Shown piece by piece: positions 2,589 through 35,906 of a DNA stretch of 35,906 nucleotides. The notes under the pieces were generated by a model. That model was not told the DNA's origin, ran no database searches, and saw nothing but the letters and a program-made list of their open reading frames with translations. This DNA is from an uncultured Verrucomicrobia subdivision 3 bacterium (GTDB lineage Bacteria; Verrucomicrobiota; Verrucomicrobiia; Limisphaerales; UBA8199), in contig CAIWJG010000478.1 of assembly GCA_903912925.1 (NCBI GenBank), forward strand, positions 1 through 35,906, in the 5' to 3' direction. Position 1 is the stretch's first letter. Every line of letters begins with the position of its first letter. A program made the position numbers and the translations under genes.

Positions 2589-2594
2589 TGCCAA

Positions 2595-2743
2595 ATCCGA
2601 AGGCCGAAATCCGAAGGCCGAAGGAAGGCCGAAATCCGAAGGCTGAACACGGCAGTGAGCTGGGTTCAGCCAGGCGCCGCCCTTTCGGTTTTCGGATTTC
2701 GGCATTCGGGTTTCCTTCGGTTTTCGGTTTTCGGTTTTCGGAT
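2595..2743 (+). repeat. Heptad-arm inverted element, copy A (moxR / DUF58 junction)
   Basis: The left arm (2595-2647) is a run of 7-bp words such as ATCCGAA and GGCCGAA. The right arm (2684-2743) is the imperfect reverse complement, with words such as TTCGGAT and TTCGGTT. A 4-bp GGAA (left) or TTCC (right) interrupts the 7-bp rhythm once in each arm. The core of about 36 nt begins CACGGCAGTGAGCT and ends GCCGCCC, as in copy D at 5632. The left arm starts 6 nt after the moxR stop and the right arm ends 17 nt before the next ATG. Confidence 0.9.
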
Positions 2744-2760
2744 TTCTGCCCGCCGCCGTC

Positions 2761-3678
2761 ATGACCATCACCGAGCTACTAGAAAGCGTGCGGCGGGTAG
2801 AAGTGCGCACCAACCGCCTGGTCAACGACATGATGGTCGGCGCCTATCTCAGCCACTTCAAGGGCCGGGGCATGGATTTCGAGGAGCTGCGGGAGTATAT
2901 GCCCGGAGACGAAGTCCGGGACATCGATTGGAATGTCACCTATCGCATGGGGCGGCCGTTCGTGCGGTGCTACCGTGAGGAGCGCGAACTGGCGGTGGTG
3001 CTGGTGGTGGACATTTCGGCCTCGTCGGCCTTCGGGTCGCTGCGCCGCACCAAACGCCAGTTTGCCGCGGAGATTGCGGGCACGCTGGCCATTTCCGCCA
3101 CGCGCAGCAGCGACAAGGTGGCGCTGTTACTATTCACCGACCAGGTGGAGCTTTACCTGCCGCCGCGCAAAGGGCGGCGGCATATTCTCCGGATCATCCG
3201 CGAGATGCTGTCGTTTGAGCCGAAGCAGCGCGGCACGAACATCCCGGCGGCGCTGGGATTCCTGAATCGCGTGCTCCACCGGCGTTCGATTGTCTTCCTG
3301 CTCACCGACTTTCTGCACAGCTTCGGGACCACCTCCAGCCAACCCATGCCCGGCCGCGACACGGTGCAGGAGATCGGCCTGACCAACGCGCGCCACGACC
3401 TGGTGTGCGTGCATCTGCATGACCCGCGCGAGAGCACGCTGCCGGCGGCCGGGTTGCTGACCATCGAGGACGCCGAGACGGGGGAGTTGCTTGAGATCGA
3501 TTCCAGCCGCACGGCGGTGCGCGAGAAGTTTGCCGAAACCAACGCTGAGCGCCTCGCCGAACTCGATCGAGCCCTGCGCCGCGCCGGGGTGGATACGCTG
3601 CGCTTTAACACGGCCGAATCCTTCGCGCACACGTTGCAGGCCTTCTTTGAGACCCGAAGGGGGAGGAGAAGAGGGTGA
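2761..3678 (+). CDS. DUF58 domain protein of the Bat operon
   Basis: This 305-residue protein has the DUF58 signature GRGMDFEELREYMPGD followed by EVRDIDWN (Y46 to about 58). A VWA-like fold then starts at VVLVVDISASS. The family is nearly always encoded next to MoxR and VWA proteins and is thought to help assemble or regulate them; its molecular role is not settled. There is no signal peptide or transmembrane helix, so it is probably cytoplasmic. The ATG at 2761 has no Shine-Dalgarno motif; the preceding bases are the pyrimidine-rich end of repeat copy A. The stop overlaps the GTG proposed as the start of the next gene. Confidence 0.92.
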   Translation: MTITELLESVRRVEVRTNRLVNDMMVGAYLSHFKGRGMDFEELREYMPGDEVRDIDWNVTYRMGRPFVRCYREERELAVVLVVDISASSAFGSLRRTKRQFAAEIAGTLAISATRSSDKVALLLFTDQVELYLPPRKGRRHILRIIREMLSFEPKQRGTNIPAALGFLNRVLHRRSIVFLLTDFLHSFGTTSSQPMPGRDTVQEIGLTNARHDLVCVHLHDPRESTLPAAGLLTIEDAETGELLEIDSSRTAVREKFAETNAERLAELDRALRRAGVDTLRFNTAESFAHTLQAFFETRRGRRRG

Positions 3679-4415
3679 GAGGCCGAAACCCGAAACCCGA
3701 AACCCGAAGGCCGAAGGAAATCCGAAGGCCGAAATCCGACTGCGGAGCGCGGCTGTCCTCAGCCGCAGCGGTTGGGACTCTCGCAGGCCGCGCGAGTAAC
3801 CTATTCGGATTTCGGATTTCGGCCTTCCTTCGGGTTTCGGGTTTCGGCCTTCGGATTTTGGCCGCCGCCCTCTCTCTGCTCTTTGCCCAGTCGCTCTTCG
3901 CCGCCGACACCAACCCCGCTACCAACTCCGAAATCCCAGCCCTTCGTCCGCCTCATGCCGAGCTGGCGCCGACCTACTGGGAACAGCACGGCGTAGCGGT
4001 GGTCGTCTGCGTGGTGCTCTTCCTGGCTTTAGTTGGCGTTGCCATCTGGTATCTCACCCGGCCTAAGCCGCCGGTCGTCATTCCGCCGGAGGTCCTGGCT
4101 CGCAAGGCGCTGGAGCCGTTGGGCCAGCGAGCGGAAGACGGCGCGTTGTTGAGCCAGGTTTCCCACATTCTGCACCAATACGTGACTGCGGCTTTCAATC
4201 TGCCGCCGGAAGAACTCACGACGGCCGAGTTTTGCCGCGCCATTGCCGGCCACGAGCAAGTCGGTGCCGACTTGTCCGCCGCCCTCAGCGAGTTCCTGCA
4301 GAAGTGCGACCAGCGGAAATTCTCTCCCCCCGCGCCAGCTCCGCCGCTCAGCGTCGTGGACCAGGCGCTCAAGCTCATTGACCAGGCCCAAGTAAGGCGG
4401 CTCGCTAGAAGATGA
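3675..4415 (+). CDS. DUF4381-like single-pass membrane protein of the Bat operon
   Basis: This is a small membrane protein in the place where Bat operons often encode DUF4381 proteins. The GTG at 3675 overlaps the DUF58 stop (GTGA), but this start is uncertain: about 60 N-terminal residues are translated repeat copy B. Residues 44-61 come from the right arm and run into a hydrophobic stretch ending in SLFAAD, which looks like a signal-peptide cleavage region. A second helix, VAVVVCVVLFLALVGVAIWY, precedes a soluble tail with a helical LARKALEPLG region. That pattern fits DUF4381, a periplasmic helper of BatA/BatB, but the assignment rests partly on position. A TTG inside the right arm (near 3857) is another possible start. 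Confidence 0.65.
   Translation: MRGRNPKPETRRPKEIRRPKSDCGARLSSAAAVGTLAGRASNLFGFRISAFLRVSGFGLRILAAALSLLFAQSLFAADTNPATNSEIPALRPPHAELAPTYWEQHGVAVVVCVVLFLALVGVAIWYLTRPKPPVVIPPEVLARKALEPLGQRAEDGALLSQVSHILHQYVTAAFNLPPEELTTAEFCRAIAGHEQVGADLSAALSEFLQKCDQRKFSPPAPAPPLSVVDQALKLIDQAQVRRLARR
3681..3856 (+). repeat. Heptad-arm inverted element, copy B (overlaps the start of the DUF4381-like gene)
   Basis: The left arm (3681-3740) uses words ACCCGAA, GGCCGAA and ATCCGAA with one GGAA interruption. The right arm (3804-3856) uses TTCGGAT, TTCGGCC and TTCGGGT with one TTCC interruption. The core of about 63 nt contains its own hairpin (GCGGCTGTCCTCAGCCGC). The element is translated in frame as the N-terminus of the downstream protein if the GTG at 3675 is used. 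Confidence 0.88.
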
Positions 4416-4416
4416 A

Positions 4417-4568
4417 ATCCGAAATCCGAAACCCGAGGCCCGAAGGAAGGCCGAAATCCGAAACCCGAACCGGGTCAGGTGCGGCTGGCTTCTGCCATTC
4501 GCCCCCGTTTCGGCCTTCGGATTTCGGCCTTCGGATTTCCTTCGGGTTTCGGCCTTCGGGTTTCGGAT
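4417..4568 (+). repeat. Heptad-arm inverted element, copy C (DUF4381-like / batA junction)
   Basis: The left arm (4417-4469) starts one base after the upstream stop codon, with words ATCCGAA and ACCCGAA and a GGAA break. The right arm (4509-4568) has words TTCGGCC, TTCGGAT and TTCGGGT with a TTCC break. The core is about 39 nt. The right arm ends 16 nt before the batA ATG. Confidence 0.9.
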
Positions 4569-4584
4569 TTCCTCCCCTTCCGTC

Positions 4585-5625
4585 ATGACGGGCAACCTCG
4601 AGTTCCAATACCCTTGGCTGCTGGCGCTGCTGGCGTTGCTGCCGATCTACGCTTTCCTCCGCGGGCGCATCGGCAAGCTCGCTGCGCTGCGCTTTCCCAG
4701 CGCCGACATCGCTCGGGCCGCCGGCGCCGCCGCGCGATCCGCGGCAGGCCGACTCCTGCTGTTTCTGCGAATTCTTACGGTGGCGTTGTGCATCGTTACG
4801 CTGGCCGGGCCGCGCTTCGCCAATGACCATACCGAGACACAAGCCAGCGGCATCGATATCATGCTCGTGCTGGACTTGTCGTGGTCCATGATGGCGCTGG
4901 ACATGAGCGGGCCGCAGGAGCGCGTCTCGCGCTATGACATCGCCTCGCAGGTGCTGGAGGATTTCATCCGCAAGCGTCGCAGCGACCGGCTCGGGCTGGT
5001 CGTCTTTTCGGCTGTGCCCTACCTGGCGAGCCCACTCACGCTCAATCACGATTGGCTCATCGAGAACCTCCATCGTCTGCATGTGGGACTCATCCGGGAT
5101 CTGGGCACCGCCATCGGCGATGCCACCGCCGCCGGCGCCAAGCGGCTGAAGGCGCTCAAGGACAGCAAGAGCCGCATCATCATCCTGCTGACGGATGGCG
5201 ATAACAACAAGGGCGAGATTGATCCTCTGCCCGGCGCGCAGCTTGCCGCTGCCCTGGGCGTGAAGATTTACACCATCGGCATCGGCATCGAGCAGCCGTG
5301 TACCCTGCCGCTGTTCAACCCGCTGACCGGCAAGCTGGAGCTGGACGCCAATGGCAATGTCAAACCGGCCATGGTCCTGCAGCCCGCCAACTACGATGTG
5401 CTCAGCAAGATGTCCGCCCTCTCCCGGGGCAAGTCCTACCGCGCCACCAACCGCCGCGAATTGCAGCGCATCTACGACGAGATTGATCGTTTGGAGAAGA
5501 CCGAGATCAAGCTGCGGCGCTTCACGACCTACCGGCCGTTGTACCAGTGGCCCTTGCTGGCCGCTTTGGGATTGTTTGCGCTGGAAGTAGTCCTCGCCAA
5601 CACCCGGCTAAGGAGGGTGCCATGA
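4585..5625 (+). CDS. batA: VWA domain membrane protein BatA
   Basis: This 346-residue inner-membrane protein has two N-terminal helices (about 8-25 and 58-77) and a C-terminal helix (PLLAALGLFALEVVLA). They bracket a periplasmic VWA domain. The metal-binding MIDAS motif is intact: D97-x-S99-x-S101 in DLSWSM, the Thr in LGTAIGDA, and the Asp in LLTDGDNN. BatA forms a complex with BatB in the Bacteroides-type aerotolerance operon; the exact substrate is unknown. The ATG at 4585 gives the usual short N-terminus before the first helix. No Shine-Dalgarno sequence is seen; the upstream bases are the end of repeat copy C. Confidence 0.9.
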   Translation: MTGNLEFQYPWLLALLALLPIYAFLRGRIGKLAALRFPSADIARAAGAAARSAAGRLLLFLRILTVALCIVTLAGPRFANDHTETQASGIDIMLVLDLSWSMMALDMSGPQERVSRYDIASQVLEDFIRKRRSDRLGLVVFSAVPYLASPLTLNHDWLIENLHRLHVGLIRDLGTAIGDATAAGAKRLKALKDSKSRIIILLTDGDNNKGEIDPLPGAQLAAALGVKIYTIGIGIEQPCTLPLFNPLTGKLELDANGNVKPAMVLQPANYDVLSKMSALSRGKSYRATNRRELQRIYDEIDRLEKTEIKLRRFTTYRPLYQWPLLAALGLFALEVVLANTRLRRVP

Positions 5626-5631
5626 GGGGAA

Positions 5632-5784
5632 ATCCGAAACCCGAAACCCGAAATCCGAAGGAAGGCCGAATACCGAAATCCGAACACGGCAGTGAGCTAA
5701 GGGCAGTCAGTGGCCGCCCTTTCGGATTTCGGAATTCGGCCTTCGGATTTCCTTCGGAATTCGGCCTTCGGATTTCGGTTTTCC
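5632..5784 (+). repeat. Heptad-arm inverted element, copy D (batA / batB junction)
   Basis: The left arm (5632-5684) has words ATCCGAA and ACCCGAA with a GGAA break. The right arm (5721-5784) has words TTCGGAT, TTCGGAA and TTCGGCC with a TTCC break and a closing TTCC. The core begins CACGGCAGTGAGCT and ends GCCGCCC, as in copy A, with a diverged middle. The left arm starts 6 nt after the batA stop; the last heptad ends 20 nt before the batB ATG. Confidence 0.9.
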
Positions 5785-5800
5785 TACTCCCAGGCCGCGC

Positions 5801-6829
5801 ATGAACTTCGTCAACCCACATTTCGCCGAACCGCACTGGCTCTGGCTGGCGGTGCTGGGTCCGCTGCTGCTGGTGGCCCTGCAACGCTATTCGGCCTGGG
5901 CGCGACGCCGACAGCTCGGCCAACTGGCGGCGACGCAGTTCCTCGAGGACCTGACCCGCTCCTACAGCCCCGTCCGCCGCGCGATCAAGGACGTATGCCT
6001 CGTGCTGGCCGTGGCTGGAGTGGGGCTCGCGCTGGCCCGGCCGCAATGGGGCGAGCAGGCAGAGGTGAGCCGCTCCTTCGGCCAGGACACACTCTTTATT
6101 CTGGATTGTTCACGCAGCATGTTGGCGGGAGACGTCACGCCCAACCGCTTGCAGCGCGCCAAGCTGGCGATTCTCGACTACGTGCAGCGCTCCAGCCGGG
6201 GCCGGATCGGGCTGGTCGCCTTCGCTGGCCAGGCTTTTCTCCAGTGTCCGCTTACCTTTGACTATGGCGCCTTCCGGGACGCGCTGAGTGTCATCGACGA
6301 GAGGACCATACCCGTCCCCGGCACCGACATCGGCCGGGCGCTCGATGAAGCCTACCGCGCCATGGAGAAAGGCGAGCGTCAAAAGGTGCTGGTGCTGCTT
6401 ACGGACGGCGAAGACCTCGAACTGGGGGGCATCCGCACTGCGGAAACGCTGGCCAAGCAAGGTGTCGTCGTATTCACGTTGGGGATCGGCACGGCGGCGG
6501 GCACGGAGATTCAGTTCCCGAACGAGCAAGGCAAATTGGAAGTGGTGCGCGACAGCCGCGGCGAGGCCGTGCGCAGCCGGCTCGACGAAAAGACCCTGCG
6601 CGGCATCGCCCAGGCCACGCACGGCGCCTACTTTCCCCTTGGCCTGCTGGGGGAGGGCCTGGCGAAAGTCCGCCGTGCGCTCGAAAACCTGGACGCGGGC
6701 TCCGGCGCAGCCCCGGCGCGCAAGTTTGGGGTGGACCGTTTCCATTGGCCCGTAGCGGGGATACTGGTCTTGCTGGTGGCGGAATCTTTGATTGGCACCC
6801 GGCGCGGGCGGCGTGACATTACGTCTTGA
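5801..6829 (+). CDS. batB: VWA domain membrane protein BatB
   Basis: This 342-residue paralogue of the preceding protein has N-terminal helices at about 12-28 and 61-80. The VWA domain has an intact MIDAS (D102-C-S104-R-S106, then PGTDIGRAL and LLTDGEDLE). A C-terminal helix (PVAGILVLLVAESLIG) sits near the end. The paired arrangement of two similar VWA membrane proteins identifies the BatA/BatB pair; which is A and which is B is taken from gene order. The ATG at 5801 follows repeat copy D by 16-20 nt and has no clear Shine-Dalgarno sequence. The next gene follows after a few bases. Confidence 0.9.
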   Translation: MNFVNPHFAEPHWLWLAVLGPLLLVALQRYSAWARRRQLGQLAATQFLEDLTRSYSPVRRAIKDVCLVLAVAGVGLALARPQWGEQAEVSRSFGQDTLFILDCSRSMLAGDVTPNRLQRAKLAILDYVQRSSRGRIGLVAFAGQAFLQCPLTFDYGAFRDALSVIDERTIPVPGTDIGRALDEAYRAMEKGERQKVLVLLTDGEDLELGGIRTAETLAKQGVVVFTLGIGTAAGTEIQFPNEQGKLEVVRDSRGEAVRSRLDEKTLRGIAQATHGAYFPLGLLGEGLAKVRRALENLDAGSGAAPARKFGVDRFHWPVAGILVLLVAESLIGTRRGRRDITS

Positions 6830-6836
6830 ACAGCTT

Positions 6837-7880
6837 ATGATGCAGCGTGTGAACATCCAACTGAACATCCAACCGAACATCCAACATCCAACATCCAACA
6901 TCCAACATCCAGCGACGGCCCGAGCTGAGGCCATTGGATGTTGGATGTTGGATGTTCGATGTTGGGTGTTAAATATTGGATGTCGGGTGTTCCCGGTGGG
7001 CCTTTGGGTCTGCCTCCTGGCGACGAGCGCCCTTGCCAGCCCCGACGCCGCGCCGCCCTCCAGCCCACGCGAGCACTTCAATGCCGGCACCCGGCAGCTT
7101 AGCGCGGGCAAGCTGCGCGAGGCGGAGGCTTCGCTGGAAACCGCCCTCACGAGTCAGGATCAACGGCTCCAACCTCCCGCGCTTTACAACCTCGGCCTCG
7201 TGCGGTTTAAACAAGGCGCGGAGGAGTTGAAGAAAGGGCCGGCGGCCAAGCCAACCCTCGCCCGCGGACAGAAAGCGACCGAGCAAGGGGACGAGGCCCT
7301 TCACCAGGCGGAGGGAGCGCTGGCGAGCGACGACATGCTGAAAATGGTCGCCGCCTATATGCGCGGGCGAGGCGCGCGCAAGGAGTTGAAGGGGGCGACG
7401 GAGGCGGTGCAGCGCGCGCTGAAAGCGCATGGCTCGACGTTGGCCCGATGGGAGCGGTCGTCGGGTGATTTGAAGAGCACGCTGGAGCTGAACAGCGCCG
7501 ATTCCGACGCCCGACACAATGCGGAGGTCGTGGATCGCTGCATCGCCAAGCTCGTGGACAGCATCCAGGAGTTGCAGCAGTGCTCCAGCGGATCGTGTAA
7601 TAAGAAGAATGAACTGAGCGATGCGTTGAAGAAGCTTAAGGGCCGCATCCCCAATCCCAACATGCCCCCGGGCGAAGCCGGAGAGGAGGAGGAGGAAGAG
7701 CAGGAGCAAAAGCCTCAGCCCGGCCAGCAGGAAGGCCCTTCAAAGGACGGCCAGGAAACCACCCTGTCCCCGGAACAAGCGGCGTGGCTCCTGGACTCCT
7801 ACAGGCTCGACAGTGAACGCCGTTTGCCGATGGGCGAAACTCCGAGTCAACCGAAAGAGCGTTCCCGGCCCACATGGTGA
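6837..7880 (+). CDS. batC: TPR protein BatC
   Basis: This is a secreted tetratricopeptide-repeat protein. A TPR-like region starts near REHFNAGTRQLSAGKLREAE and continues through ALYNLGLVRFKQG. Then comes a helical middle, a low-complexity acidic stretch (EEEEEEQEQKPQPGQQEG), and a C-terminal LSPEQAAWLLDSYRLDSERR motif typical of BatC. The role is probably as a periplasmic partner of BatA/BatB. The ATG at 6837 makes a leader of about 70 residues, of which roughly 33-51 are the translated right arm of repeat copy E. The Met at 6945 gives a more normal signal peptide, MLDVRCWV... ending LATSALAS. Both starts share the frame; the second is more signal-like. Confidence 0.85.
   Translation: MMQRVNIQLNIQPNIQHPTSNIQHPATARAEAIGCWMLDVRCWVLNIGCRVFPVGLWVCLLATSALASPDAAPPSSPREHFNAGTRQLSAGKLREAEASLETALTSQDQRLQPPALYNLGLVRFKQGAEELKKGPAAKPTLARGQKATEQGDEALHQAEGALASDDMLKMVAAYMRGRGARKELKGATEAVQRALKAHGSTLARWERSSGDLKSTLELNSADSDARHNAEVVDRCIAKLVDSIQELQQCSSGSCNKKNELSDALKKLKGRIPNPNMPPGEAGEEEEEEQEQKPQPGQQEGPSKDGQETTLSPEQAAWLLDSYRLDSERRLPMGETPSQPKERSRPTW
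6853..6989 (+). repeat. Heptad-arm inverted element, copy E (ACATCCA / TTGGATG words)
   Basis: This has the same plan as the TTCGG elements but a different word. The left arm (6853-6911) holds ACATCCA repeated seven times, the first two followed by 5-bp spacers. The right arm (6934-6989) holds eight 7-bp units, TTGGATG with point variants, followed by TTCC. The core is about 22 nt. The whole element is inside the start region of batC. Confidence 0.9.
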
Positions 7881-9854: not shown

Positions 9855-10729
9855 ACCCTCCCCCGCGCGCTGTTGGGCCTTGGCGCTTTGTGCTTCGGCC
9901 TTCGAACTTCGGATTTCGGCCTTCCTTCGGCCTTCGGATTTCGGCCTTCGGATTTCCTCTAGTAGTGCTGTTGCTAACGGTCGCGTGCATCTGGCCAGGC
10001 TCCGTCTCCGCTTCATCTGCCGAGGCCCTGTTTCAGACTGGGGTAACTGCCTACCGTGCGAGTGATTACGCGCTGGCCGCCGAGGCGTTTGGCCAATCCA
10101 TAGCGCTGCAGCCGGCCTCCGGTGCGCTGCAGAACCTGGGCAATGCTGAGTGGCAACGGCACCGCACGGGCGCGGCCATCCTCGCGTGGGAGCAGGCCCT
10201 CTGGCTCGACCCGTTCAACCAGTCCGCCCGCCAGAGTCTGCGCTATGCGCGCAAGAATGCTCAACTCGAAGCGCCGGACCTGGCGTGGTATGAGGTCATC
10301 TCAACCTGGCTGCCGGTGAGTTGGTGGGCGTGGATTGCGGGCGTGAGCCTTTGGCTGTCCGTCGGCGTCGTGCTGTTGCCGGGCATCTTGCGGCGACGCA
10401 AAGCCACCTGGCACCAGGCCATCGCGGCCGTGGGACTCATGGTCTTCCTGCTCAGCGTCCCGGCGCATATTGGCGTCGAGACGCGTTCACGGATCGGCTT
10501 TGTGATGCAAAAGGACACGCCGCTGCGGCTGACGCCCACGCTCGAAGCGCAGGCGGTGACACGACTGGCCGCCGGTGAGCCGGCCCGCAAAGTTCGCGTG
10601 CGCGGCAACTACCTGCTCATTCGCAACGGTCGCGTGCTGGGCTGGGTGGAGCAGGACCAGTTCGGCTTGACTTGCCCCAAACGCGGGAAGGATTCTGCTC
10701 AAACCGTCAAAGTGGCTATCGCACGCTGA
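9851..10729 (+). CDS. batE: TPR and SH3-like protein BatE
   Basis: This is a 292-residue membrane protein. It starts by ATGA overlap with batD. Residues 15-35 (FGFRPSF, AFGF and similar) are translated heptad repeats, and the hydrophobic core PLVVLLLTVACIW follows at once; together they make a signal or anchor sequence. Then comes a TPR-like segment (LFQTGVTAYRASDYALAAEA and LQNLGNAEWQRHRTGAAI). Two transmembrane helices follow (WWAWIAGVSLWLSVGVVLL and AVGLMVFLLSVPAHIGV). A C-terminal SH3-like part (DTPLRLTPTLEAQAVTRLA to VLGWVEQDQF) ends the protein. This domain order matches BatE. It closes the Bat operon; the next gene is 36 nt away. Confidence 0.85.
   Translation: MNPPPRAVGPWRFVLRPSNFGFRPSFGLRISAFGFPLVVLLLTVACIWPGSVSASSAEALFQTGVTAYRASDYALAAEAFGQSIALQPASGALQNLGNAEWQRHRTGAAILAWEQALWLDPFNQSARQSLRYARKNAQLEAPDLAWYEVISTWLPVSWWAWIAGVSLWLSVGVVLLPGILRRRKATWHQAIAAVGLMVFLLSVPAHIGVETRSRIGFVMQKDTPLRLTPTLEAQAVTRLAAGEPARKVRVRGNYLLIRNGRVLGWVEQDQFGLTCPKRGKDSAQTVKVAIAR
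9894..9957 (+). repeat. Heptad repeat half-element, copy G (right arm only, within batE)
   Basis: Nine-odd units of the TTCGGNN word with a TTCC break in the middle and TTCC at the end, exactly like the right arms of copies A-D. No left arm is found upstream; batD runs right up to the batE start. All of it is coding. Confidence 0.88.
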
Positions 10730-19970: not shown

Positions 19971-20069
19971 ACACCCTACTCAGAAGCGAATCCGAGCAAA
20001 TGTTACCGGAAATGTGGTGCGCTGGCGGACCTGCCAGCGCCAAACAAGCCATGAACCCGCGGGAAAGTC

Positions 20070-20168
20070 TCGATTGTTCCTCGATTGTTGCTCGATTGTT
20101 GCTCGATTGTTGCTCGATTGTTGCTCGATTGTTGCTCGATTGTTGCTCGATTGTTGCTCGATTGGTGG
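20070..20168. repeat. Tandem array of nine 11-bp units upstream of the Ser/Thr kinase
   Basis: Units of TCGATTGTTGC start at 20070, 20081, 20092, 20103, 20114, 20125, 20136, 20147 and 20158. The first ends CC, seven are identical, and the last has decayed. It lies between the lpxB stop and the kinase start, 100-200 bp before that start. The 11-bp period is close to one helical turn, so any bound protein would sit on one face. The rest of this 260-nt gap shows nothing recognisable. Confidence 0.95.
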
Positions 20169-20231
20169 GCCGTTTCCTGCAAGGAGATTTCAGAGCCTCC
20201 TCACGTCGGCTCCTACTATTTGGACGGGCGG

Positions 20232-33790: not shown

Positions 33791-34569
33791 GTTTCTCCGA
33801 TACCCAGCGCCGCCTCTCTCCCTTTCGGTATTCTCCCCAGGTGGTAGATCAGAAACCCATGCAGGAAGCGGCCCAGTTCAGCCGCTTGGGCTGCGGTTGG
33901 CTTTAGACGTGCCACTACCGGCCAATCCTTCTCCGCAAGCGCCTTCACCAGTTGCTTCGTCCCCGGATTCAAGTTGCTCTGGTCCAGGTCCGGCTTGAGG
34001 CCCAGATCGGTCAGTAGCTTGAGTTCAAAGGCGAAGATCGTGGTCGCCTGCGGAGCCTCCACGGCCCTTTGCCGCACCTCGGGACCTTGAACCGCCCCCT
34101 CTCCCGCCTTCGGCACCCTCTCCCCCTCTGAGGGGGAGAGGGACAGGGAGAGGGGGCCGGCACGAGCGCCCCGCGGTTCATGGAGAGGGCCTGCCACAAG
34201 CTGCCCGAGGAGGCCCGTCATTAGCTCGAAAACGCCCGCCAGCGGCGTTTCCATCTCGGTGGATTGCTCCACCAGGGCGGTGCAGTAACAAGCTTGCTGG
34301 AGCAGGCCAAGGTCCTCCCGCAATCTGCTGTGCGTCTGGCGCAGGCTCGCCTCACGCAGCGTATGAAGCTCGGAACGGCGGCTGCGGCTGAAGCTGAAAT
34401 CCGCCAGGTAGAACAGGTCCAATTTGCCGCGGAACGGCGAGTTGGCGCGGCGCGCTCCCTTGGCCACGGTCGCCAGCCGGCCCAGGGTGGGGGTGAGCCA
34501 GTGGACGATGAGGCTGGTCTCCGTGAGCGGTCGCGTGCGCAATACCAGGCCCGCGGCGGTTTCGATCAT
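33787..34569 (-). CDS. recO: DNA repair protein RecO
   Basis: RecO loads RecA onto single-stranded DNA with RecR in the RecFOR pathway. The 260 residues show the N-terminal OB fold: TAAGLVLRTRPLTETSLIVH, then TLGRLATVAKGARRANSPFR, and YLADFSFSRSRRSELHTLRE. A helical C-terminal domain follows (FAFELKLLTDLGLKPDLDQ). About residues 143-172 (LSLSLSPSEGERVPKAGEG and its surroundings) are a repeat-derived insertion in the helical domain, in frame. The gene overlaps the DUF502 gene by ATGA. Confidence 0.9.
   Translation of the reverse strand: MIETAAGLVLRTRPLTETSLIVHWLTPTLGRLATVAKGARRANSPFRGKLDLFYLADFSFSRSRRSELHTLREASLRQTHSRLREDLGLLQQACYCTALVEQSTEMETPLAGVFELMTGLLGQLVAGPLHEPRGARAGPLSLSLSPSEGERVPKAGEGAVQGPEVRQRAVEAPQATTIFAFELKLLTDLGLKPDLDQSNLNPGTKQLVKALAEKDWPVVARLKPTAAQAAELGRFLHGFLIYHLGRIPKGREAALGIGET
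34116..34142. repeat. Perfect 13-bp palindrome inside recO
   Basis: CCCTCTCCCCCTC (34116-34128) and GAGGGGGAGAGGG (34130-34142) are perfect complements with a single T between. This is the core of a dispersed repeat that I recognise as common in several bacterial groups. It is translated in frame in recO. Confidence 0.85.
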
Positions 34570-35276
34570 CGGATGGAAACTCCCGCAGGGTAGGGCACCT
34601 CGCCGAGCGAACTTTTGGCCTCCGGGCTGGAGACCGGGACATAGTCGGGCAGGATGGCGCCCAGGCTGATGACGTACTTGATCGCGTCGGGCACCGACAT
34701 ATCCAGCTTGATCACCTTCTCCTCGGGCACCATCAGCAGGAAGCCTGACGTCGGGTTCGGCGTCGCCGGCACAAACACGCAGACCACCTTCCGGCCAGTC
34801 TTGAGCCTCACCTCTTCCTGCTGCTCGCTGGTGATGAAACCGATCGAATGCACCCCGGCGTGCGGGAACTCGACCAGCACCACCGTGCGAAAGGCGGTCT
34901 TGTTGGTGGCGGAGAAGGCGTCATTGACCTGCTTGGTGGCGCTGTAGATCTTGTTGAGCAAAGGAATGCGCAGCAGGGCCGAATCCACCCATTCGATGAT
35001 TTTCTTGCCGAAATAATTCCGGGCCAGCAAGCCCACCGTGCCGATCAGGAATACCGCCAGGGCGAGCGCCACCAGGCTCCAGTACCAGTACATCGGCCCG
35101 TTCCCCTGATCGTGATGGATGAACCTCTCGGGCACGAAGATCAACAGCGTGTCCGTGATATTCGCGACCGTTCCGAACAGCCATCTCAGGACCGCGATGG
35201 AGATGACCGCGGGCAGTACAATGACCAGCCCGGCCCAAAAGTTGGCCTGCCAGCGCGCGAAAATACTCTTCTGCAC
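34566..35276 (-). CDS. DUF502 family membrane protein
   Basis: This protein is of the DUF502 family, widespread and of unknown function. Near the N-terminus FWAGLVIVLPAVISIAVLRW is a membrane helix; a second is WSLVALALAVFLIGTVGLLA. The conserved RIPLLNKIYSATKQV follows, with FPHAGVHSIGFIT and FVPATPNPTSGFLLMVPEE. The GTG at 35276 gives 236 residues and a start (MQKSIFARWQ) close to the family norm. The frame stays open for another 95 codons, but those are translated 7-bp and 11-bp repeats and are unlikely to be real protein. The stop overlaps the recO ATG. Confidence 0.88.
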   Translation of the reverse strand: MQKSIFARWQANFWAGLVIVLPAVISIAVLRWLFGTVANITDTLLIFVPERFIHHDQGNGPMYWYWSLVALALAVFLIGTVGLLARNYFGKKIIEWVDSALLRIPLLNKIYSATKQVNDAFSATNKTAFRTVVLVEFPHAGVHSIGFITSEQQEEVRLKTGRKVVCVFVPATPNPTSGFLLMVPEEKVIKLDMSVPDAIKYVISLGAILPDYVPVSSPEAKSSLGEVPYPAGVSIR

Positions 35277-35333
35277 CCCGTCAGAGTAGGCGAATGCGCC
35301 TTTTTGCTCAAGGTAAAGCGCGGAGGGAAGGGG

Positions 35334-35436
35334 GGAATGCAGAAGGAAGAATGTAGAATGAAGAATGTCCCGAGTTGGCAGCCCGCCGTTCCTGCCAGGC
35401 CGGTTTTCTGCATTCTTCATTCTGCATTCTTCCTTC
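35334..35436. repeat. Heptad-arm inverted element, copy I
   Basis: The left arm (35334-35368) is built on GAATGAA and GAATGTA words with a GGAA break. The right arm (35408-35436) is built on CATTCTT and CATTCTG words ending in TTCC. The core is about 39 nt. It lies directly upstream of the DUF502 gene. Confidence 0.88.
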
Positions 35437-35444
35437 CCCCCTCG

Positions 35445-35587
35445 GTGGCTTTGGGGTCGCATGAGGGACGCATGAGGGACGCATGAGGGTCGCATGGGGG
35501 ACGCATGCGGGTCGCATGAGGGACGCATGAGGGTCGCATGGAGGACGCATGGAGGACGCATGGGGGTGGCTTTGGGGTGGCTACCGC
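35445..35587. repeat. Tandem array of about thirteen 11-bp units
   Basis: Units of the form GACGCATGAGG or GTCGCATGAGG follow each other from 35456 to 35565. They are flanked by variant 11-mers GTGGCTTTGGG at 35445 and 35566 and one decayed unit. Three further variant units lie at about 35610-35645. The period is 11 bp throughout, as in the array at 20070. Confidence 0.93.
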
Positions 35588-35668
35588 CTGGCTAGCAACA
35601 CGCATTGAGGTGGCTTTGATGTCGCATTGAGGTCGCATGAGGTGGCAAGCACGACCCGCCCGGCCTTT

Positions 35669-35807
35669 CTTCATTCTTCATTCTTCATTCTGCATTCGCC
35701 GATTTGAGCGGGGCGCTTTGCAGCAAGCCAGGCGGTATGGGGGCGGTATGGGGGCAGTATGGGGGCGGACAGATGAATGAAGAAGGAAGAAGGCAGAATG
35801 TAGAATA
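35669..35807. repeat. Heptad-arm inverted element, copy J, enclosing 11-bp repeats
   Basis: The left arm (35669-35697) has CATTCTT words. The right arm (35775-35807) has GAATGAA-like words with a GGAA break. The core (about 77 nt) contains three tandem 11-bp units: GGCGGTATGGG at 35731 and 35742, and GGCAGTATGGG at 35753. Confidence 0.85.
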
Positions 35808-35906
35808 GGACCATAACCCTAAAAACGGCCCTTGGGATTAACCGCAAAGAACACAAAGATCGCAAAGAATGAATCAGTTCTTTGGCTCGGAATCATCACA
35901 AGTTCC
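35808..35906. other. Gene-free end of the window
   Basis: No coding region is seen. At 35841-35870 the motif CGCAAAGAA occurs twice with a related ACAAAGAT between, a short imperfect direct repeat. The window ends here, so a gene may begin just beyond. Confidence 0.4.

Follow-up and report, generated by a model that had tools for sequence, protein, structure and literature searches.

A dispersed intergenic element of head-to-tail 11-bp units in a verrucomicrobial genus

The best explanation as a whole, which we consider probable, is that the block at 35445-35642 of the window (the entire 35,906-nt stretch analysed here) is one copy of a non-coding element that is dispersed between genes and consists wholly of head-to-tail 11-bp units. 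This 11-mer element is a previously unreported repeat family of a familiar kind. The window, contig C478, comes from a metagenome assembly of 8.8 Mb in 997 contigs, hereafter the own genome. The nearest relative in our collection, G001, belongs to the same genus and was the only other genome of the genus compared.

The 11-bp arrays of the window and their heptad neighbours

Period-11 arrays were reported by TRF at 35454-35566 (10.3 copies), 35601-35647 (4.4 copies), 35731-35768 (3.5 copies, GGCGGTATGGG), and 20069-20164 (8.7 copies, CTCGATTGTTG). When decoded in phase, 35445-35642 is an unbroken run of 18 units of 11 bp. GNCGCAT or CACGCAT was counted in 13 of the 18 units, in agreement with the "about thirteen" of the initial annotation, and the remaining units are GTGGCTTTGRK, GTGGCTACCGC, and CTGGCTAGCAA. 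The three further units of the same annotation lie at 35731-35763, as two exact GGCGGTATGGG units and one GGCAGTATGGG. Its statement that the array at 20070 has an equal period also held, as TRF gave 11 bp for both. As shown in Table 1, heptad blocks lie around and between the 11-bp arrays. A degenerate 9-bp array, CGCAAAGAA CACAAAGAT CGCAAAGAA, was also seen at the contig end (35842-35868), and 9-bp words, AATGGGACG among them, make up another class that recurs in the own genome.

Table 1. Features of the repeat cluster and of the other 11-bp array in the window
Feature	Position	Strand	Basis or remark
DUF502-type membrane protein gene flanking the repeats	34569..35276	-	repeat cluster upstream of its promoter region
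Heptad inverted pair, long hairpin left of the 11-bp array	35331..35440		TRF; RNA fold
Units of the left heptad pair	GAATGNA 35335-35367; TTCTKCA 35406-35436		
11-mer element, variable-number part of 12 units: GTGGCTTTGGG, ten GWCGCATGNRG, GTGGCTTTGGG	35445..35576	+	in-phase decoding; TRF
Ordered terminal cassette GTGGCTACCGC CTGGCTAGCAA CACGCATTGAG GTGGCTTTGAT GTCGCATTGAG, then GTCGCATGAGG	35577..35642	+	ungapped alignment with 37 other copies (two species); genome matches
Anchor unit GCCAGGCGGTA within the cassette; the same unit stands at 35727-35737, plus strand	35582..35592	-	sequence
11-mer element, right end: a TGGC... unit out of phase, followed by CCCGCCCGGCC	35643..35665	+	like right ends in other copies
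Heptad block TTCTTCA between the two 11-bp elements	35667..35697	+	TRF
Leader GGGCGCTTTGCAGCAA of the second 11-bp element (J)	35711..35726	+	matches elsewhere in the genome
Second 11-bp array: anchor GCCAGGCGGTA, then GGCGGTATGGG GGCGGTATGGG GGCAGTATGGG	35727..35768	+	TRF; other copies, including one in another genus (L043)
Heptad block GAATGAAG/AAGAAGG, inverted relative to 35667-35697	35774..35806	+	sequence; inverted-heptad match
Another 11-bp array in the window (CTCGATTGTTG), distinct in word class and copied in the own genome and G001	20067..20170	+	TRF

The two kinds of array differ in architecture. An inverted partner within 250 bp was present for 92 of 209 heptad arrays (44%; 8 in the reversed control). 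For the 11-bp arrays, the corresponding numbers were 1 of 23 in the own genome and 0 of 35 in G001, or about 2%. Since inverted partners are frequent among the heptads, we regard the heptads largely as hairpins and the 11-mers as direct arrays. The single 11-bp array with an inverted partner, at L108:470-560, consists of (ACCTCCGTAGT)n facing (ACTACGGAGGT)n. Heptad inverted pairs were also seen between consecutive genes of a MoxR/BatA-type operon in the window (2593-6991 and 9893-9956). They include CCGAAGG/TTCGGAT and AACATCC/TTGGATG, and several have higher-order steps of 7+7+7+4 = 25 bp.

We considered whether the repeat could act at the RNA level, as the hairpin of a terminator, attenuator, or structured leader. 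The adjoining left heptad pair folds very stably, as a 110-nt hairpin of -60.7 kcal/mol (z -8.25 against shuffles). However, the 11-bp parts fold near or slightly better than shuffled sequence (z -2.6, -0.9, +0.2, and -0.4), no Rfam family reaches its gathering score, and the 11-bp arrays have no such inverted partners. RNA structure was therefore rejected for the 11-mers, and an RNA-level role is very improbable.

Copies, anatomy, and sites of the 11-mer element

A BLAST search of the own genome found 92 segments matching 35300-35906. In a sequence-model search, the terminal cassette was found at no fewer than 87 places in the own genome and at no fewer than 104 in G001, both lower bounds with 150 candidates scored per genome. 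The cassette model gave no match in the other 11 genomes of the family or in 243 other genomes of the order, and in a phylum-wide draw that left out G001 it was found only in the own genome. No match to the 11-mer element was found in plasmids, phages, or viral contigs. Shuffled sequence contained essentially no such arrays, and none at these lengths. Together with the 92 BLAST segments, this places the 11-bp block far beyond chance. An assembly artefact, or chance, is very improbable. The window and many copies do lie near contig ends in a metagenome assembly of 997 contigs; however, dozens of copies are internal to their contigs, the cassette recurs in a second species that was assembled independently, and shuffling produces none.

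The aligned copies have a common plan. They start with CAGGCTTTG / GGAGCCTTG, followed by a variable array of units drawn from GTCGCATGRGG, GACGCATGRGG, and GTGGCTTTGRG. The length of the array before the core varies from 5 to 19 units between dispersed copies, with one genome examined per species. Five units then follow in fixed order, GTSSCWAYCGS YTGGCTAKCAA CACGCWTTGRG GTGGCTTTGAT GTCGCATTGAT, and the right end after this cassette is GGCTTTGCCCGG. The cassette aligns without gaps in 38 copies from the two species, with strict 11-bp spacing and no indels. With regard to MITE features, a left end (CCAGGCTTTG) and a right end (GGCTTTGCCCGG) were seen by eye to recur, and no exact target duplication was seen at two G001 sites.

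Within the arrays, neighbouring units are the most alike, and an alternation of two units is seen. Unit identity falls with separation, from 8.0 to about 6.9 of 11 positions in the own genome and from 8.1 to 4.2 in G001. These patterns suggest that the array gains and loses length through local duplication of blocks of 11 bp and 22 bp. In the window, heptad hairpin blocks and the second 11-bp element, J, are joined to the copy.

None of the 42 copies examined falls within a predicted gene; the genes were called in this analysis using a codon model trained on the window. In relatives, the DUF502 gene follows ybeY after about 80 bp. At the window site, the repeats ahead of the DUF502 promoter region span more than 600 bp, and ybeY is absent from the contig. 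The DUF502 frame continues upstream without a stop across the 11-bp array (34566-35561, minus strand), giving a spurious N-terminus, MRPPCVLHATLMRPSCDPHASPMRPSC..., and automatic annotation may thus start this gene about 95 codons too early. Two G001 copies adjoin genes whose orthologues in the own genome are without the element. As the sites differ between the two species, the copies appear to have moved or multiplied since the species split, and mobility of the element is suggested by these site comparisons. The copies have probably spread to different intergenic sites by some copying route.

RAYT and reverse-transcriptase loci were considered as drivers and rejected, because, apart from a coincidence on one contig rich in repeats, no association was found. 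Of 17 Y1-transposase matches in the genome, 16 are above the cut-off, and no 11-mers were found near any of these 16 loci. No mobilising enzyme or transposase, and no function, was found for the 11-mer element. A terminator or promoter role with constant orientation to genes was also rejected, as the two genomes disagree: right-hand neighbour genes are mostly on the minus strand in the own genome and mostly on the plus strand in G001.

Unit positions 4-5 (GC) and 7 (T) are nearly invariant and the other positions vary, although the conservation of position 5 arises partly by construction, because the decoder used here demands a C there. This pattern would fit arrays of selected protein-binding sites, phased at about one helical turn, with the spacing fixed and the words free. 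The strict spacing of the 38 cassettes, the strictly intergenic location, and the direct-only architecture would also fit this explanation. On the other hand, the compared sites are not common to both species, the gene orientation around the copies is inconsistent, and the arrays use many words with no known binder. By analogy with known sites such a role is conceivable, and we rate it as unlikely. Rather than a device dedicated to regulation, the 11-mer element is most likely a passenger, neutral or selfish, that is tolerated between genes.

Periods 7 and 11 and the kinship of the 11-bp words

Periods were surveyed in 765 kb of the own genome (about 9% of it, in part from contigs selected for carrying the element), in 569 kb of G001, and in 473 kb of relatives in the order. 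Non-coding arrays of at least three copies had periods of 7 (161 arrays), 8 (23), 9 (19), 10 (3), 11 (22), and 12 (1) in the own genome; the corresponding numbers in G001 were 52, 11, 4, 1, 35, and 0. In the outgroups, period 7 was dominant and one period-11 array was found. The suggestion that 7 and 11 dominate whatever the word was borne out for 77-81% of non-coding arrays, but periods 8 and 9 also occur. Arrays of 8 bp (GCTGAAAT / AAAAGCTG) are another recurrent class in the own genome (L060-L079, L107-L126, and L179-L197), and in G001 8-bp arrays directly follow some 11-mer elements (TTTCAGC tails).

Autocorrelation, which needs no threshold, gave two series of peaks in the genus, 7/14/21 and 11/22/33; the outgroups lacked the 11 series. 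The 11/22/33 series survived masking of the main family. With the main family left out, exact duplications at 11 compared with those at 10, 12, and 13 together numbered 23 vs 11 in the own genome, 19 vs 3 in G001, and 2 vs 12 in the outgroups. The 11-bp excess of the genus over the outgroups had a Fisher p of 5e-5 for events and 0.007 for word clusters. Exact two-copy duplications also peak at 7 and 11. Since the peak at 11 persists without the main family, 11 is a true second mode of the genus. In this survey, period 7 occurs throughout the order, and the additional mode at period 11 is confined to the genus. An origin of 11 as 7 + 4, from heptad steps such as TTCGGCC+TTCC, was rejected for the main family; it explains a few heptad-derived 11-bp calls (GAAGGCCGAAA, AAGACCGAAAC).

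We also investigated the relationship between the 11-bp words. The initial annotation took the GGCGGTATGGG units for the core of a heptad element and the 11-bp words for unrelated. The first claim was not upheld: the GGCGGTATGGG units belong to a dispersed element of their own, J, with leader GGGGCGCTTTGCAGCAA, which merely abuts heptad blocks. The second holds in part. There are many word classes, but the unit GCCAGGCGGTA is exactly the same in the GACGCATGAGG and GGCGGTATGGG elements, where it lies within GC(A/T)AGCCAGGCGGTA in the main cassette (minus strand) and in J, and one leader stands before two different 11-bp words. This leader, GGGCGCTTTGCAGCAA, was found at 23 genome places with at most one mismatch (0 in the reversed control), before CGGTATGGGGG arrays in several copies and before CGGTAGTGCTA arrays in two further ones. 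Intermediate units are seen in a copy from another genus (L043). A G004 match to the J leader was read by eye as lying inside murF and was taken as chance.

Judged from its copies, J appears to be a longer dispersed element, cut off by heptads in the window. Elsewhere (L004:1773, L005:1762, L007, and L010), J has a conserved downstream tail, GGCCTGACGTGG.TTGC...CTGATATT...ACGAGATTAGC. Beside 27 non-main 11-bp arrays, AGCCAGG/CAAGCCA was the most enriched word (7 vs 0.9 expected), which is suggestive and not decisive after multiple testing. In two arrays, at L095:2620-2749 and L124:11944-12040, the word drifts from end to end with the register kept and few letters shared per unit. Descent of all words from one family was rejected, because their mean similarity of 5.95 vs 5.67 in the letter-shuffle null is too weak.

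Two distinct generating processes had been proposed for the two periods. The periods are indeed real, separate modes that differ in architecture and distribution. However, periods 8 and 9 roughly equal 11 in frequency in the own genome, the words are partly linked, one dispersed family accounts for many of the 11-bp arrays, and the falling unit similarity with 22-bp blocks is the pattern of ordinary local tandem duplication. A separate generating machine for each period is possible. A specific form of this explanation combines a general slippage preference for 7 bp with genus-specific 11-bp tandem duplication of any sequence. It is consistent with the local maximum at 11 over 10, 12, and 13 in both species without the main family, with the autocorrelation series that stays after masking, and with the different architecture of heptads and 11-mers. 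Against it, several of the exact two-copy duplications belong to dispersed word families and so are not independent births, periods 8 and 9 are raised as well, the anchors and leaders common to some word classes imply descent, and there is no candidate enzyme. We therefore consider it the less probable course, though one with some weight. That a lineage-specific process makes 11-bp-step duplications in arbitrary intergenic sequence, beside a widespread 7-bp process, seems to us a little more doubtful; if true, the window arrays and about 20 other word classes would be its products.

The shared anchor and the one leader with two words favour an inherited register in which the words drift, rather than a dedicated generating machine for each of the two periods. 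In this explanation, which we prefer, the fixed period would be mainly an inherited register, as in-phase block duplication would preserve the 11-bp step. Point changes and homogenisation would replace the word, leaving related arrays with different words. The heptads would be the older, order-wide, hairpin-forming class. About 20 period-11 word clusters remain in the two genomes once the main family is omitted, and only some of them can be linked by anchors or flanks, which speaks against an inherited register. Nor does an inherited register account for a preference for 11, and not for 10 or 12, that is limited to this genus.

Comparison with known repeats and significance

Heptamers have been described as the commonest bacterial repeats of 5-11 bp, and polymerase slippage or footprint has been proposed as the explanation, according to PMC4679880 and PMC4692102. 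The same papers summarise LSSR5-11 (Mrazek et al. 2007), intergenic tandem arrays with units of 5-11 bp, found in free-living bacteria with large genomes. Like these, the 11-mer arrays are tandem units within 5-11 bp and longer than chance. Unlike them as described there, the genus has a second mode at exactly 11 bp, largely one dispersed element with a fixed unit order, and no 11-bp preference is described in the text consulted. Heptamers of cyanobacteria and Xanthomonas (STRR, GGGNATC; PMC4692102) are also short-unit intergenic arrays found genome-wide, some as inverted pairs; the present unit is 11 rather than 7, with no inverted partners and with an ordered cassette.

By description, STAR of staphylococci (PMC3532100) may be the nearest analogue in behaviour, as both are interspersed intergenic direct repeats with variable copy number and species-specific loci. 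STAR, however, is built of repeat plus spacer, and the array here is contiguous, with a different unit and size. REP/BIME elements, with their RAYT transposases, are likewise numerous dispersed intergenic repeats, and the genome has Y1-transposase matches, but the 11-mer unit is not palindromic and has no linked RAYT gene. Arrays of 11-bp direct repeats form the plasmid centromere for ParR of R1, and 7-bp repeats serve omega of pSM19035 (PMC9426499, PMC9499535). The likeness in unit length and regular spacing to parC and parS would be a functional analogy only: those have one word at one or few plasmid sites, whereas the 11-mer element has at least 87 chromosomal copies, many words, and here a DUF502 neighbour. 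CRISPR arrays have unique spacers, whereas the 11-bp units are contiguous and spacer-free. No earlier report of the 11-bp mode or of this family was found in the open-access literature.

The genus that contains both genomes consists of soil bacteria. A dispersed family of more than 80 copies helps explain why assemblies of these genomes are fragmented, and such a family can corrupt gene calls, as with the DUF502 frame that runs through the array. A preference of bacterial tandem repeats for 7 bp has been noted since 2007, without a tested cause. The second sharp preference, at 11 and missing in the sampled relatives, offers a natural contrast on the origin of step length, and it bears on whether this length comes from the replication machinery, an inherited register, or selected spacing.
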